From Actinobacteria bacterium 21-64-8 (GTDB lineage: Bacteria; Pseudomonadota; Alphaproteobacteria; Sphingomonadales; Sphingomonadaceae), in assembly GCA_903970225.1 (NCBI GenBank), contig CAJCHR010000266.1, forward strand, positions 1 through 36,346: a DNA stretch of 36,346 bases, read 5' to 3'. Position numbers and translations under genes: made by a program. The notes beneath the pieces were generated by a model. That model did not search any database. It was not told the DNA's origin and saw only the letters and a list, made by a program, of their open reading frames with translations. Shown here in pieces: positions 30,752 to 36,346 of the stretch; the first letter of the stretch is position 1; each line of letters opens with the position of its first letter.

Positions 30752-30951
30752 GCGAAGCTTTCGGCAGGGCAGCACTGCGCCTCGCCGCGCACGCCGCGCA
30801 GGCTCTTGGGTGGCGCCCCGCCGAATTCTGGGCCGCGACCCCCGCCGAACTCGCGACTTCGCTCGGCCTTGCCGATGCCGATCCGGGCGCGATGCTCGAT
30901 CGCAGTCAGCTCCAACGCTTGATGGACACAGACAATGACCGACCAGGTTGA
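30748..30951 (+). CDS. Small tail assembly chaperone (gp10.1-like), 67 aa
   Basis: The fragment GRAALRLAAHAAQALGWRPAEFWAATPAELATSLG is the hallmark of the small phage tail assembly chaperone that follows gp10 in GTA clusters (the Trp-x-Pro-x-x-Phe-Trp-x-x-Thr-Pro-x-Glu-Leu pattern). It should bind the tape measure before tube assembly. It starts at an ATGA overlap with gp10 and its 3' end overlaps the tape-measure gene by 17 bases. Confidence 0.88.
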   Translation: MSEAFGRAALRLAAHAAQALGWRPAEFWAATPAELATSLGLADADPGAMLDRSQLQRLMDTDNDRPG

Positions 30952-31504
30952 TTCGCTGCTGATCGACGTGCGCGCGAGCACGCAAGGCTTCGCGCAGGAT
31001 GTCGCGACGATGCGTACGGCGTTCGACGGCACGCTCGTCGGCGGCTTCACGCAAGGCGGGGCCGTACTCGACAAGAGCCTGACGAGCGCGATCCAGAAGG
31101 GCAGCTCGGGCTTTGACGATCTCAAGCGAACGGCGCTCTCGGCGCTGAACGAGATCGCGGCGCAATCGTTGCGCAGCCTGTTCGGCGGCACATCGGGCGG
31201 CACGTCCTCCGTGACAGGCGGCCTGCTGGGATCACTTCTCGGCCTTCCTGGCCGCGCGAGCGGCGGGCCGGTTTCTCCGGGCGGCGCCTATATCGTCGGT
31301 GAGCGCGGACCCGAAGTCTTCGTGCCCTCCTCGGTGGGCCGGATCGATAACGGCTCCGGCTCGGCGAACGCCACCGCGGCCGCACGTGACGTGCGTGTGG
31401 CGATCAATCTGAGCAGCCCCATGGGATCGAGCGTGCCGCAATCGCTCGAGCGTTCGTCGCGCCAAGTGGCCGCTGCCGTGCGCCGCGCGCTGGTCACGCG
31501 CTGA
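30935..31504 (+). CDS. Short tail tape measure protein (RcGTA gp11-like), 189 aa
   Basis: The C-terminal part RASGGPVSPGGAYIVGERGPEVFVPS is a motif of phage tape measure proteins, and the first 90 residues are helical (DVRASTQGFAQDVATMRTAFDG, LKRTALSALNEIAAQSLRSLFGG). Tape measure length sets tail length, so 189 residues imply a very short tail, as in RcGTA, whose gp11 is also short. The ATG lies 17 bases inside the chaperone gene, and the stop TGA shares one base with the gp12 ATG. Confidence 0.9.
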   Translation: MTDQVDSLLIDVRASTQGFAQDVATMRTAFDGTLVGGFTQGGAVLDKSLTSAIQKGSSGFDDLKRTALSALNEIAAQSLRSLFGGTSGGTSSVTGGLLGSLLGLPGRASGGPVSPGGAYIVGERGPEVFVPSSVGRIDNGSGSANATAAARDVRVAINLSSPMGSSVPQSLERSSRQVAAAVRRALVTR

Positions 31505-33843
31505 TGGCGTTCTGGCTGGCGAGCCAACGCGAAGGGCAGGCGCGCGACTGGATCCAGCGCTTCGATCCGCGCTTCTGGACGGTCAACTTCCCACGCCCGA
31601 TGTGCGCGGTCGTGGTGAGTACCGCGCCCGACGCGCTGCGCGTCGATGCGGTGTTCATGAACCAGGCGGACCTCGCCGGGCTGATCTGGGCCAGCGAGGA
31701 CACGATCGACCACCCGCTGCTGCGCTATGCAACGAAGCGTGATTATTCACGCTGCACGCTGAGTTTTCACTGGAAGTCGTCGGGATTGATCCCGCTCGAC
31801 GCGGTGAACGGCCCGACGCTCACGATCGAAGGACGCGATAACACCGGCGCCGCGCGCAGCTGGTACGTGCGACTTTGGAACTATGCGCAAGGCACCAATA
31901 CCGACGCGCAGATCACGCTGCCGTTCTCGGCGCTCGCAGGCGGCTACCTGCTGCCGGCCGAGGCCGATCCCGTGTGGCCCGGCGACGTCGACCGGATGTT
32001 CATTTCTTTGGTGCCGCCGGGGTATAATCCGTCGAGCACTGCGGCACTGACAACCTCGCTCGAGGCTTGGGCCGAACTGACTGCGATCGCATGCGACGGC
32101 AACAGTGCGGTGATCCCGATCGGCGATGTGATCGTACCGCCCCACGGTCTCGCGATTGCCACCGACTTCGACGACAGCGGTGTACAGACGCCTGCCCGGC
32201 TGCTGCGCGGCATCCGCCAGCTCGGCTATCGGGGAAGCATCGTCCACTACGTGGGGATGAGCCATTTCTTCCGGCTCACCGCGAGTGGCGGCGGTTTCAT
32301 CGCCGGATCGGGTGCAAGCGTGCTGAACACGCCGTCGCAAGCGTGGCACGCCGGTTTTTTTGCGGAATGCGCGCGTCGCGGGTTCTCACCGATCGTGTCG
32401 TTCTCGTACGAGTTGCTGGCACAATATTGCCCCTCCGATTGGCAACAAAGGGCCTTCAACGGCGACCCTGCGTTGACGGGTTACATGCCGCCGTCGGTCC
32501 TCCTCTCGCCCGCGAGTACGCCAGCGATGGCCTGGCTTCAGACGGCCGCTCGCGAGTTTGTCGCGCTGATGGTCGCAGCGGCAGTCCCAGTACGGGTGCA
32601 GGTCGGCGAGCCATGGTGGTGGGTCGCCACCGATGGCCGCCCCTGCCTTTACGATGCCGCTGCGCGCGCGGTGCTCGGCGGCGCTCCCGTCGAGATCCAA
32701 AGCATGCGCCAGCCATTGACGAGTGCGCAGACCGCACTGCTGGACGCAGCCGGTGCGCTTCTCGCCTCCTCGACGGCTGCATTGGTCGGCGCCGTGCGCA
32801 CCGCCGCCGCGCCCGCAGGGGCCGAGACACTCCTGCTCGTGTTCACACCGACGGTTCTCGATCCCGCGACACCCGAGGCTCGGCGCGCCAACCTGCCGAT
32901 CGGCTGGACGTCGCCCGCGTTCGACCGGTTGCAACTGGAGGACTACGACTGGCTGACCGGAGGTGACAACGCGCCGCGACGCGCCGCGTACACGGTCATC
33001 AATCAGCGCCTCGGCTATCCGCCCGCCCAGCAGGACTATTTTGCCGGCTTCGCGACTGATCCGGCAACGAGCCAGCCCGCCTGGCAACGCATCGACGCCG
33101 GGATCGACGAGGCTGCGTACCGTACCCCGCACGAGACCTTTGTCTGGGCGCTGCCGCAGATCTGCCGTGACGGATACGTGCGGCTCCCGCCCCCTTCGGA
33201 GAGCGACGACATGCAAGCCTTCGATGATATCAGCTATCCGCTCGCGCTCGGCATGGACGCGTCGATCGCCCCCGAGTTCTCGACCAGCATCTCGGTCACC
33301 GCGTCGGGCTTCGAGCGGCGCAACAGCTTGTGGACCGACGCAAGGCTGCGTTTCGATGTCGGGCCCGGCATCCGCTCGGATCAGGAGCTGGGAACCCTGA
33401 TCGCGTTCTTCCGCGCACGGCGCGGCGCGGCGCGCGGGTTCCTGCTGCGCGACCCGTCGGACAACACTTCGAACGGAATGACCGATCCGCCGAGCGGGCT
33501 CGACCAGCTGCTCGGGATTGGCGACGGGATCCAGACCGACTTTCCGTTGATCAAGGCTTACGGGGACAGCGCTGCATCGCAGACGCGGCGGATCACGCGT
33601 CCGCTCGCCGCGTCGATCCTGGTGAGCGTCGCGGGAACTGCGCTCACGTCCGGCTGGTCGCTCGGCACCGCAGGCGTTCTGAGCTTGGCCACCCCGCCCG
33701 CCAGCGGCGCCGAAGTTCGCGCCGGGTTCGTGTTCGACGTCCCGGTCCGCTTCGCCGATGACAAGCTCGATATCGCCGGCGCCGCGTTTGCTGCAGGTGA
33801 AGCACCCAGCGTGCCGGTCGTCGAAATTCGTGAAGCATCATGA
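31504..33843 (+). CDS. GTA distal tail protein, DUF2460 (RcGTA gp12), with large N-terminal extension, 779 aa
   Basis: Residues about 571-779 are DUF2460 (FDDISYPLALGMDASIAPEF, ASGFERRNSLWTDARLRFDVG, LIAFFRARRGAARGFLLRD), the distal tail protein of RcGTA, which alone is about 210 residues long. About 570 residues are added at the N-terminus. Of these, 1-200 look like a beta-sandwich (YSRCTLSFHWKSSG, SWYVRLWNYAQG). Residues about 210-500 resemble a glycosidase-like TIM barrel, with GLAIATDFDDSG, SPIVSFSYELLAQY (Glu303), VRVQVGEPWWWVA (Glu369) and LQLEDYDWLTGG as candidate strand ends. An enzymatic or wall-binding role is inferred. The two parts form one uninterrupted frame. It is joined to gp11 and gp13 by overlaps. 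Confidence 0.88.
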   Translation: MAFWLASQREGQARDWIQRFDPRFWTVNFPRPMCAVVVSTAPDALRVDAVFMNQADLAGLIWASEDTIDHPLLRYATKRDYSRCTLSFHWKSSGLIPLDAVNGPTLTIEGRDNTGAARSWYVRLWNYAQGTNTDAQITLPFSALAGGYLLPAEADPVWPGDVDRMFISLVPPGYNPSSTAALTTSLEAWAELTAIACDGNSAVIPIGDVIVPPHGLAIATDFDDSGVQTPARLLRGIRQLGYRGSIVHYVGMSHFFRLTASGGGFIAGSGASVLNTPSQAWHAGFFAECARRGFSPIVSFSYELLAQYCPSDWQQRAFNGDPALTGYMPPSVLLSPASTPAMAWLQTAAREFVALMVAAAVPVRVQVGEPWWWVATDGRPCLYDAAARAVLGGAPVEIQSMRQPLTSAQTALLDAAGALLASSTAALVGAVRTAAAPAGAETLLLVFTPTVLDPATPEARRANLPIGWTSPAFDRLQLEDYDWLTGGDNAPRRAAYTVINQRLGYPPAQQDYFAGFATDPATSQPAWQRIDAGIDEAAYRTPHETFVWALPQICRDGYVRLPPPSESDDMQAFDDISYPLALGMDASIAPEFSTSISVTASGFERRNSLWTDARLRFDVGPGIRSDQELGTLIAFFRARRGAARGFLLRDPSDNTSNGMTDPPSGLDQLLGIGDGIQTDFPLIKAYGDSAASQTRRITRPLAASILVSVAGTALTSGWSLGTAGVLSLATPPASGAEVRAGFVFDVPVRFADDKLDIAGAAFAAGEAPSVPVVEIREAS

Positions 33844-34658
33844 CGCGCGCATGGTTTTCCGGCGATCTGGAGACGGTCGCCACCTTCTGGCGCGTGCTTC
33901 GCTTGGACGGGGTCACGCTCGGCTTCACCGCGCACGACCGCGATCTGTGGATCGACGGCGTGCTCCATGCCGCCAATCCCGGCATGGTCGCCTCCTCGCT
34001 TCGCCGTTCGGCCGGGTTCGATGCCGACAGCGCCGAAGTGACCGGCGCGCTCAGCCACGCCTCGATCACCTCGGAGGACATGTCCGCCGGACGATACGAC
34101 GGCGCACAAGTCCGCATCGGCTTGGTCGATTGGGAGACTGGCGAGAACGAAATCCTCTATGCCGGCACGATCGGCTCGGTCAGCGAACAGGACGACCGGT
34201 TCACTGCCGAACTCGTCTCGCGCAAGGCCGACCTCGCGGTCGATCCGATCCCGCGCACGAGCCCGGCCTGCCGCGCCGAATTCTGCGGCGAGGGGTGCGG
34301 CCTCAGCACCGCGCGCTTCACGCATGACGCGCTGGTCTCCACGATCGATCCTGCAAGCAACGCCGTGCAGTTCATGATGGCGCCTGCGCCAGCCGATTGC
34401 GTCGGAGGCACCTTGCGCTGGCTGGATGGACCGCACGCGGGGCAAACGATGGCGATCGCCGCGAGCGGCGTGACGGGTCTGGTACTCGATCATCCTTTAT
34501 CGCCCACCCTCACCGCCGGCGCGCGCGCGATGGTCCGTGAAGGCTGCGATCACACGATTGGCACCTGCGCGGCGCGGTTCGCAAACGGTGTCAACTTCCA
34601 GGGCGAGCCATTCCTTCCGGGCAACGATCTGCCCACCCGCTATCCACCGCCCCAATGA
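33840..34658 (+). CDS. GTA hub protein, DUF2163 (RcGTA gp13), 272 aa
   Basis: The protein shows the DUF2163 pattern: FWRVLRLDGVTLGFTAHDRDL near the start, RRSAGFDADSAEVTGALSH, the hub segment VRIGLVDWETGENEILYAGTIG and the Cys-rich end RTSPACRAEFCGEGCGLS with GCDHTIGTCAARFANGVNFQGEP. In RcGTA this protein builds the tail hub and its cysteines bind an iron-sulfur cluster. Five cysteines can be seen in the C-terminal part here, so the cluster may be kept. It overlaps both neighbours as ATGA. Confidence 0.93.
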   Translation: MTRAWFSGDLETVATFWRVLRLDGVTLGFTAHDRDLWIDGVLHAANPGMVASSLRRSAGFDADSAEVTGALSHASITSEDMSAGRYDGAQVRIGLVDWETGENEILYAGTIGSVSEQDDRFTAELVSRKADLAVDPIPRTSPACRAEFCGEGCGLSTARFTHDALVSTIDPASNAVQFMMAPAPADCVGGTLRWLDGPHAGQTMAIAASGVTGLVLDHPLSPTLTAGARAMVREGCDHTIGTCAARFANGVNFQGEPFLPGNDLPTRYPPPQ

Positions 34659-35068
34659 GCGGCACGGCTTTGGCAGAAGCAGCGCACGCGCTGGTCGGAA
34701 CGCGCTTCCGGCTGCAGGGACGCGATCTGTCTACGGGACTCGACTGTATCGGTGTTCTCGCCGCATCGCTGGATGCGGTCGGGAAACCCGCCGCGCTGCC
34801 TTTTACGTACCGTTTGAAGACACTCGGTGCCTGCGACGCCGAAAGCTGGGCGAGTGCGAGCGGCCTAAGCCAGGCATCCGGCGCCGTGATCGCTGGCGAT
34901 GTCCTGCTCGCCCAAATCTCGCCATGTCAGTTTCATCTGCTGATCGCGCTGGGGCAGGAATCGTTCGTCCATGCGCACGCGGGCCTTCGCGGCGTCGTGC
35001 GTCACGACGGCGCGCTCCCATGGCCGATCGCCGGTCACTGGCGTCTCATCGAAGAGGACCCTTTCTGA
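34655..35068 (+). CDS. GTA NlpC/P60 family peptidase (RcGTA gp14), 137 aa
   Basis: This is a papain-like endopeptidase domain that cuts peptidoglycan cross-bridges so that the tail can reach the cell membrane. The catalytic Cys31 lies in GLDCIGVLAAS and the His is probably His94 in CQFHLLIAL, with SFVHAHAGLRGVVRH after it. There is no signal peptide, as expected for a protein built into the tail. It overlaps gp13 by 4 bases and is followed by gp15 after one base. Confidence 0.9.
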   Translation: MSGTALAEAAHALVGTRFRLQGRDLSTGLDCIGVLAASLDAVGKPAALPFTYRLKTLGACDAESWASASGLSQASGAVIAGDVLLAQISPCQFHLLIALGQESFVHAHAGLRGVVRHDGALPWPIAGHWRLIEEDPF

Positions 35069-35069
35069 C

Positions 35070-36346
35070 ATGGCCACCATCGTATTCGGCGCGGTCGGCT
35101 CGCTGCTAGGCGGTCCGATCGGCGGCAGCATCGGCGCGCTGCTCGGCCGTCAGGTCGACGGCGCCATCTTCGGCAACGGCAATCGCGACAGCGGCCGCCT
35201 AAAGGACCTGACCGCCACCACCTCGACGTACGGCGACGCGATACCGCAGGTCTTTGGCCGGATGCGGATGCCCGGCTCGATCATCTGGTCGACCGACCTG
35301 GTCGAGCATTGGGATCGCACGAGTTCCGGGAAGAGCAGCGCCACGGTTACGAGCTACACGTACACGGTCTCGTTCGCGGTTGCGCTTTCCAGCCGCCCGA
35401 TCGTCGATATCGGACGCATCTGGGCCGACGGCAATCTCCTGCGCGGTGCCGCGGGCGACCTCAAGGTCGGCGGTTCGATCCGCATCCATACGGGTCAGCA
35501 TGACCAGGCGGCCGATCCGCTGGTCGCCGCCGCCGAGGACGCAGGCCGAACGCCGGCGCATCGCGGGCTGGCTTACGTCGTATTCGAGGACCTCGACCTA
35601 GCGACCTTCTACAATCGCATCCCGACCCTGAACTTCGAGGTTATCGGCGACGAGGCGCGGCTATCGCTGGCGGAGGTCCTTGCCGGGGTGGACGATCTCG
35701 AGTGCGAGGTTCCGCTGGACGAACTGGTGGGTCTGTCGAGCGAGGGCCCGTACCAGGATATCCTGAGCCAGCTCGATACGTTCTACCCGGTCGCCTGCGA
35801 TGCGAACGGATCGGGCATCACGATCGCGCGCGAGCTGTTCCAATCCGCCCCGCTTGCTCTCGCCGAGGCGGCCATCTCGGTGCGGAACGATGCATTCGGC
35901 GGCGCAACGGGCTTTACCCATAACCGCAACCCGGTTCCGGTGCAGCCGCCGGAGATCCTGCGCTATTACGACATCGATCGCGACTATCAGCCGGGGTTAC
36001 AGCGCGCCTTGGGGCGGAGCGGTCCCGGACAACCGCAGACCACCGATTTTCCCGCAACGATGAACGCTGCGAGCGCCCGCGCACTGGTCGAGCGGATGGC
36101 GCGCAAGGCGGACTGGTCGCGCGATACGATCGCCTGGCGCACCGCCGAACTCGACACGCGCTTCGCACCCGGCAGCGTCGTGACCGTTCCAGATCAGGAC
36201 GGACAATGGCGAGTCGCGGATTGGGAGTGGCGTGACGGCGGCGTCGAGTTCACCCTGACGCGCGTCATGCCGTCGAGCGCCGATCCGACGGCGTACCCGG
36301 CAGACGGCGGACGCGCGGTCGTGGCGGTGGATGCCGCGGTCGGCGC
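35070..36346 (+). CDS. GTA tail-tip / host-specificity protein (RcGTA gp15), 5' part (partial)
   Basis: The frame runs open from the ATG at 35070 to the window edge, giving about 425 residues. The Gly-rich hydrophobic N-terminus (GAVGSLLGGPIGGSIGALLG) and TYGDAIPQVFGRMRMPGSIIW are those of gp15-type proteins, followed by TYTVSFAVALSSRPIVDIGRIW. The phage-tail_3-like region with RYYDIDRDYQPGLQRA begins near residue 298, directly after a short hub-like domain. In RcGTA a TIM-barrel domain lies between these two regions; no such insert is visible here. The missing C-terminal part would carry the receptor-binding domains. Confidence 0.9.
   Translation, partial: MATIVFGAVGSLLGGPIGGSIGALLGRQVDGAIFGNGNRDSGRLKDLTATTSTYGDAIPQVFGRMRMPGSIIWSTDLVEHWDRTSSGKSSATVTSYTYTVSFAVALSSRPIVDIGRIWADGNLLRGAAGDLKVGGSIRIHTGQHDQAADPLVAAAEDAGRTPAHRGLAYVVFEDLDLATFYNRIPTLNFEVIGDEARLSLAEVLAGVDDLECEVPLDELVGLSSEGPYQDILSQLDTFYPVACDANGSGITIARELFQSAPLALAEAAISVRNDAFGGATGFTHNRNPVPVQPPEILRYYDIDRDYQPGLQRALGRSGPGQPQTTDFPATMNAASARALVERMARKADWSRDTIAWRTAELDTRFAPGSVVTVPDQDGQWRVADWEWRDGGVEFTLTRVMPSSADPTAYPADGGRAVVAVDAAVG

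Follow-up and report, generated by a model that had tools for sequence, protein, structure and literature searches.

What the long N-terminal part of a distal tail protein could do on a gene transfer agent (GTA) is the question raised by contig CAJCHR010000266.1 of Actinobacteria bacterium 21-64-8 (Sphingomonadaceae). The window, which is the whole contig of 36,346 nucleotides, holds an RcGTA-type head-tail cluster on the plus strand over ~23.8 kb to the contig end; its genes gp11 to gp15 were numbered from position and similarity. Judged by its sequence, the long gp12 is a module of the sheath type known from phage N4, fused to a GTA distal tail protein (Dit). A barrel-bearing gp12 is a lineage trait of the order Sphingomonadales, where the module apparently takes the place of the peripheral TIM barrel of the megatron protein, gp15. 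As a whole we hold it probable, though well short of assured, that gp12 is Dit plus one N4-type sheath unit, forming six surface arms that bind and probably cleave glycan in place of the gp15 barrel. The gene is composed as follows, NCTSP standing for non-contractile tail sheath protein.

31504..33843, plus strand, long gp12, NCTSP module joined to the GTA distal tail protein, 779 aa (Pfam and PDB matches, and model)
31552..32124, plus strand, NCTSP_N (PF23844), residues 17–207, β-sandwich (Pfam E 2.2e-97)
32137..33177, plus strand, TIM-barrel_NCTSP (PF23845), residues 212–558 (Pfam E 7.1e-162)
33178..33222, plus strand, linker, residues 559–573, confidence low at 567–570 (model)
33223..33831, plus strand, DUF2460/TIGR02217 distal tail domain, residues 574–776 (Pfam, NCBIfam and PDB match)

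The frame starts with ATG and continues for 779 codons and a stop, without an internal stop, and three adjoining Pfam domains span nearly the entire chain. Against a Pfam cut-off of 27, NCTSP_N scores 324.3 bits and TIM-barrel_NCTSP 538.7 bits over its full length (profile positions 1–348 of 348). DUF2460 and TIGR02217 both exceed their cut-offs as well, and the gene sits just 5' of the hub gene gp13. NCBIfam recognises the C-terminal part only, as a phage distal tail protein of the Rcc01695 family. Among PDB sequences, residues 572–776 match RcGTA gp12, residues 272–563 match N4 gp64 (E 8.7e-35), and residues 15–89 match the non-contractile tail sheath N4 gp65 (E 1.7e-11). An earlier sequence-only reading had described DUF2460 as the C-terminal part of a 779-residue protein, set against the 210 aa of RcGTA gp12, and had pointed to a family of non-contractile tail sheath proteins with a TIM barrel as a possible relative; both statements were correct, the family being represented by PF23844 and PF23845. 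The end that it gave for the added part, 33235, needs adjustment, as it lies ~12 bases within DUF2460; the module boundary is at ~33177–33222. The PHROGs label "glycoside hydrolase" (phrog_2913) was set aside, because this match falls on DUF2460 and not on the barrel. PHROGs attaches this label to a DUF2460 family, and NCTSP family proteins appear in phage records under the names tail fiber, capsid and scaffold, or hypothetical protein; the names given to this family are unreliable.

The distribution of the fusion was followed in an order sample of 246 Sphingomonadales genomes and a class sample of 337 genomes. In the order, DUF2460 occurs in 132 of the 246 genomes, and PF23845 is above cut-off in 129, all of which also have DUF2460. 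The barrel lies in the open frame of DUF2460 in 125 of these 129, a count that is our reading of two tables compared (only part of the barrel is present in G098, G144 and G213). The fused frame is interrupted in four genomes (G010:C31, G035:C4, G072:C52 and G140:C3), which perhaps hold decaying GTAs, and DUF2460 occurs without the barrel in G021, G039 and G065. The suspicion that a long gp12 is common to many sphingomonads is borne out by the 129 of 132 genomes. In the class sample, DUF2460 was found in 53 of 337 genomes (G511 under cut-off) and PF23845 in five, namely four Sphingomonadaceae and G402; outside the order, G402 is the only one of 49 DUF2460 genomes with the barrel, and its barrel is carried by a protein other than gp12. 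A scan of genome contigs gave 404 relatives, of which the best 80 were retained; most of these bear titles of Novosphingobium or other Sphingomonadales, and all 80 have the full-length fused frame. Together with the 125 of 132 DUF2460 genomes, this excludes a frameshift or assembly error as the cause of the fusion. In G047 (L144:5994-8210) and G214, which belong to one genus group, gp12 has ~735 aa and its barrel lacks profile positions ~177–206. Relatives of gp12 were also seen on short contigs of metagenome-assembled genomes titled Rhodobiaceae and Marivivens (L060, L038), which are perhaps mis-binned sphingomonad sequence.

An AlphaFold2 model of gp12 was built from a 62-row alignment (mean predicted local distance difference test (pLDDT) 90.9, predicted template modelling score 0.84). 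It consists of a β-sandwich, a complete (β/α)8 barrel, a short weak linker and the distal tail domain, so that model and Pfam domains agree on the sandwich and the TIM-barrel-like module that had been suspected in the ~570 extra N-terminal residues. The barrel strands are at residues 217–221, 245–249, 295–301, 364–368, 441–447, 475–479, 510–513 and 544–547. The weak stretches are the linker at 567–570 (pLDDT <50) and residues 595–611 of the distal tail domain. Fold matches from Foldseek were given a second look with VIA-align. The best match of the barrel is N4 gp64 (Z 29.6, root mean square deviation (rmsd) 2.5, 300 residues aligned), and the next is a β-galactosidase of glycoside hydrolase (GH) family 42, 1kwg (Z 23.0, rmsd 3.4, 309 residues). 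PgaB of GH153 (4p7l, Z 22.4), a β-amylase of GH14 (3voc, Z 22.2) and GH35 enzymes (Z ~20) follow. Among the matches listed, the glycosidases have Z 18.6–23.0 at a sequence identity of ~7–13%, and gp12 has no GH family match in Pfam. Foldseek matches described as GH31 and isoamylase were set aside for an rmsd >20. The N-domain alone (residues 1–211, pLDDT 92.7) fits N4 gp65 residues 37–370 best (Z 18.9, rmsd 4.0, 195 residues). Its other matches are far weaker: complex I assembly factor (7zkq, Z 9.8, rmsd 7.0; 7zkp, 9.6), carbohydrate-binding modules (CBM11, Z 9.7; CBM30, 8.7) and GH50 agarases (8.2). Since a complex I assembly factor scores on a par with CBM11, "CBM-like" denotes likeness of fold only, and a common fold by itself demonstrates no function.

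The barrel carries four acidic residues of note, none of which is substituted in aligned rows.

32170..32172, plus strand, Asp223, just after barrel strand 1, unsubstituted in aligned rows
32410..32412, plus strand, Glu303 (FSYELL), just after barrel strand 3, unsubstituted in aligned rows
32608..32610, plus strand, Glu369 (QVGEPWWW), just after barrel strand 4, unsubstituted in aligned rows
32938..32940, plus strand, Glu479 (LQLEDYDW), last residue of strand 6, unsubstituted in aligned rows

Glu303 and Glu369 come just after the predicted strands 295–301 and 364–368, as the sequence-only reading had proposed in placing them at probable strand ends. Conservation was counted by origin of the loci, replacing a count on loci selected by a GEPW motif, which was biased for Glu369. 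For Glu303, Glu369 and Glu479 there is no substitution in any aligned row, and the remainder are gaps. Each is kept in 80/80 relatives from the pattern scan of genome contigs. The sets obtained by pattern scans retain some bias for Glu369, as the peptide patterns included QVGEPWWW, Q[IV]GEPWW and QIGEPWWW, and one scan also used QIEDYDWI, which contains Glu479. In loci found by hidden Markov model (HMM), which were chosen by the whole profile and so favour conserved columns too, though less so, the three are kept in 43/44 (L082-L124, 1 gap) and 14/16 (L133-L152, 2 gaps). The phage records from tblastn keep Glu303 in 6/8, Glu369 in 5/8 and Glu479 in 6/8, and the viral contigs in 240/249, 241/249 and 242/249, respectively; the others are gaps. 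Fragment sequences account for the gaps among the HMM-found loci and the phage records. The three glutamates are also kept in N4 gp64, which covers profile positions 65–356 of 356 (L156:5665-6918), while N4 gp65 (L156:1484-5632) covers positions 6–48, strands 1–2, including the DD after strand 1. The same split over two proteins occurs in seven viral loci (L307, L329, L331, L332, L336, L338 and L342, of which L307 and L332 are one contig). The idea that such tandem sheath genes mean two barrels per phage was rejected, as the HMM coordinates give one barrel over two genes. Across 129 pairs at 80–99% identity, the ratio of non-synonymous to synonymous substitution rates has a median of 0.101 in the sandwich, 0.106 in the barrel and 0.093 in DUF2460, and these near-equal values indicate that the three parts are maintained alike.

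In GH14/GH42-type families a catalytic acid stands at the end of strand 4, and in GH14 and GH42 a second catalytic Glu is at the end of strand 7. Glu369 follows strand 4 (364–368) at the position of the first and is, on the model, a candidate catalytic residue. Strand 7 (510–513) has no conserved acid, the conserved residues nearby being Y512, G515 and F516, so by its active site the gp12 barrel falls outside GH14 and GH42. Of the proposed enzyme, then, the barrel and its never-substituted acids held up, and the usual second residue did not appear. There is a precedent for a glycosidase lacking the usual pair among the same fold neighbours: in Bordetella PgaB (GH153) the catalytic residue is most probably D474, and PgaB lacks the second residue that related enzymes have (PMC5933820).

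The bare strand 7 is the first of several points that weigh against glycan-cleaving arms, and it would suit an arm that keeps a glycosidase pocket and only holds the sugar. Such an arm would be a receptor-binding module like N4 gp65, which is a receptor-binding protein (PMC12633501, PMC5862860), and the CBM-like N-domain would fit it as well. Descriptions of N4 treat the module as a sheath and a receptor binder, and in the main text of PMC12633501 the terms "tim barrel" and "glycos" occur 0 times. In N4-like phages the Gp64 tail fibres and Gp65 sheaths are reported to be highly variable (PMC8669472), as would be fitting for a receptor binder. However, the three glutamates, Asp223 and W371/W373 are unchanged across GTAs and diverse phages including N4, a stronger constraint than we would predict if the module only bound a receptor, and we regard purely non-catalytic binding as rather unlikely. 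A second alternative takes the family name literally: the module would pack on the tail tube and stiffen a very short tail with no contact to sugar. In N4, gp64:gp65 heterodimers do build a six-fold sheath round the tail tube (PMC12633501), and the module adjoins tail genes in several kinds of phages. A purely structural sheath leaves unexplained both why acids at the C-terminal ends of barrel strands never change and why the gp15 barrel, which protrudes in RcGTA (PMC13420450), is missing; it appears to us very unlikely. For glycan-handling arms, recognition by all six is likely, and cleavage by the barrel would be plausible.

The missing barrel of gp15 is GTA_TIM (PF13547), the peripheral barrel of the megatron. 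It is above cut-off in 0/246 order genomes, with one weak match under cut-off (G239, E 0.001). In the class sample it occurs in 34/337 genomes, 30 of them from the group of 49 outside the order that have DUF2460. The gp15 of Novosphingobium marinum (L003) aligns to residues 20–202 and then 787–1284 of RcGTA gp15, so that ~584 residues are gone and ~23 are in their place. Complete gp15 genes were present in 83/89 loci, with an estimated median length of 731 aa (range 584–756), against mostly 1160–1510 aa for open frames with GTA_TIM. In the window, Phage-tail_3 starts already at residue 230 of gp15, and the first 425 aa contain no GTA_TIM match. Homology between the gp12 barrel and GTA_TIM was undetectable (hhalign probability 0.6%, no GTA_TIM match in gp12). 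With no profile similarity between the barrels, the change resembles the substitution of one barrel by another to which it is unrelated or related only very distantly. Separately, in G298 (C1:1672792-1673700) GTA_TIM lies within an open frame of 32612 aa, which is no ordinary gene and possibly reflects masked sequence or an odd code.

The gain on gp12 and the loss on gp15 could instead be unrelated accidents of one lineage, which concerns the replacement only and is compatible with any function. The pattern is clade-wide and so possibly one historical event; the gp12-fused barrels group together, which may mean just one gain and one loss, and both barrels are absent from 18 of the 49 DUF2460 genomes outside the order. 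Yet no sampled genome has both barrels above cut-off, and the lost (~584 aa) and gained (~570 aa) parts are similar in size and both baseplate barrels. We therefore consider coincidence unlikely. The arm model must also accommodate the position of the RcGTA Dit N-terminus (Ala2) at the hub/megatron interface (PMC7296036), from which a bulky N-terminal arm needs a way out.

The arm consists of a CBM-like β-sandwich, a glycosidase-like (β/α)8 barrel and a weak linker, in this order, at the N terminus of Dit. RcGTA Dit forms one hexamer at the tail end. By analogy with the published RcGTA and N4 structures, six arms on weak linkers would be expected to ring the end of the short tail of the sphingomonad particle. 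With Glu303, Glu369, Glu479 and Asp223 predicted to line the barrel pocket, they most likely bind, and probably cleave, polysaccharide of the recipient surface or biofilm, which would let the particle reach the outer membrane. In RcGTA, TspA is a separate biofilm-degrading spike on the tail tube, the Dit insertion domain and the megatron, and it is reported absent from alphaproteobacteria outside the Rhodobacterales (PMC13420450); the sphingomonad arm would recognise glycan, and probably cleave it, at the place of TspA on the particle. A bolder version, which we advance tentatively and put somewhat below an even chance, has two parts: the NCTSP barrel would be an undescribed GH family with a Glu303/Glu369/Glu479 site, kept despite the N4 split, and the order would have swapped the megatron barrel for a barrel on the Dit ring, so that an arm present in three copies became one present in six, which opens a path through recipient polysaccharide.

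RcGTA is the best studied GTA particle, yet the exact function of its megatron barrel, which protrudes from the baseplate, is unknown (PMC13420450). Here a whole order is without this barrel and has a different, glycosidase-like one, expected on another baseplate ring; this suggests that a peripheral barrel is worth having and offers a route to testing what it does. As members of the family form the receptor-binding sheath of N4 and also occur in phi92, Loki and rv5-like phages, a single assay would be informative for several adsorption machines.

Outside gp12, the module is found in prophage-like clusters, phages and viral contigs. In second clusters of four order genomes (L133-L136), NCTSP_N and the barrel are fused to the hub gp13 and DUF2460 stands alone, and G402 has the same arrangement.

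L133:6203-9097, hub-fused NCTSP, DUF2460 a small separate gene upstream
L134:2818-5616, hub-fused NCTSP, DUF2460 a small separate gene upstream
L135:4278-7544, hub-fused NCTSP, DUF2460 a small separate gene upstream
L136:5893-9159, hub-fused NCTSP, DUF2460 a small separate gene upstream
L137:8805-11504 (L137 is G402), hub-fused NCTSP, DUF2460 a small separate gene upstream

Among viral contigs, the hub fusion occurs in 15 loci (eight contigs, the longest 41.4 kb) and the gp12 fusion in 183 loci on contigs of <=20.9 kb, several loci sharing one contig. This contrast is consistent with phages for the hub fusion versus GTA clusters for the gp12 fusion. In a tree of 88 barrel rows (quick method, with SH-aLRT as the only support and a midpoint root), all 53 gp12 fusions fall within one 57-row set (support 96) and the eight hub fusions form one set (support 99). 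The other four rows of the former are L188, L189 and L211, whose frames are cut at locus ends, and L251. The protein of L251 (3932-6283, 783 aa) groups with the gp12 fusions, and its last ~210 residues have no Pfam match and no recognised DUF2460. Many IMG/VR "viral" contigs of 4–17 kb (L159-L238) resemble sphingomonad GTA clusters more than phages. A 5.4 kb record from human faeces titled "Bacteriophage sp." and marked unverified (L155, MT840053.1) is ~52% identical to the gp12 gene, with the gp12 frame broken and then a hub gene; this record probably represents part of a bacterial GTA. Among the relatives in phages are phi92 gp142, EAb13, FFH2 ORF33 and Loki ORF17, the last beside the Loki distal tail gene.

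The neighbours of gp12 in the window are the following.

30935..31504, plus strand, gp11 by place, weak tape measure relative directly 5' of gp12 (NF058675 E 2.5e-6, under the curated cut-off; no Pfam match)
33840..34658, plus strand, gp13 baseplate hub, a separate gene in the window (profile matches)
34655..35068, plus strand, gp14 by place, NlpC/P60-like (E 0.024, under cut-off)
35070..36346, plus strand, gp15 megatron, first 425 aa, contig ends within (Phage-tail_3 at 230–387)

Among the papers listed by the literature searches, no description of a long gp12 or of the gp12/gp15 exchange was found; a 2017 paper on an ancient Sphingomonadales prophage (cited in PMC6821227) may mention the gene, and PMC9836097 and PMC10883770 contain no occurrence of "g12" or "gp12".

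Of the known systems, the glycosidases of GH42, GH14, GH35 and GH153 share the barrel fold and an acid at the end of strand 4, where Glu369 is placed; gp12 differs from them in its low identity (~7–13%), in lacking a conserved strand-7 acid and in having no Pfam GH match. The hub-fused NCTSP proteins (L133-L137, viral L239-L246) carry the same module among tail-tip genes beside a distal tail gene, but on a gp13-type hub (PF09931, PF09356), with a separate DUF2460 of 208–237 aa where the frame is not longer. ORF17 of Acinetobacter phage Loki has the same module, follows the annotated distal tail gene and is without a recognised hub domain. N4 gp64:gp65 has the same two domains, and the gp12 barrel is 28% identical to gp64 over 300 residues. 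In N4, however, the barrel is divided over two proteins and neither is joined to Dit, whereas gp12 is a single Dit-fused chain. Some N4 sheath units may come off and swing outward (PMC12633501). RcGTA gp12 (Rcc01695, 6tba_6B) occupies the same place in its cluster, and its residues 2–209 align to residues 572–776 of the long gp12; it has 210 aa and is without the sheath module. RcGTA gp15 likewise bears a TIM barrel on a GTA baseplate, carried on gp15 instead of gp12 and separated from the gp12 barrel by the profile probability of 0.6%.

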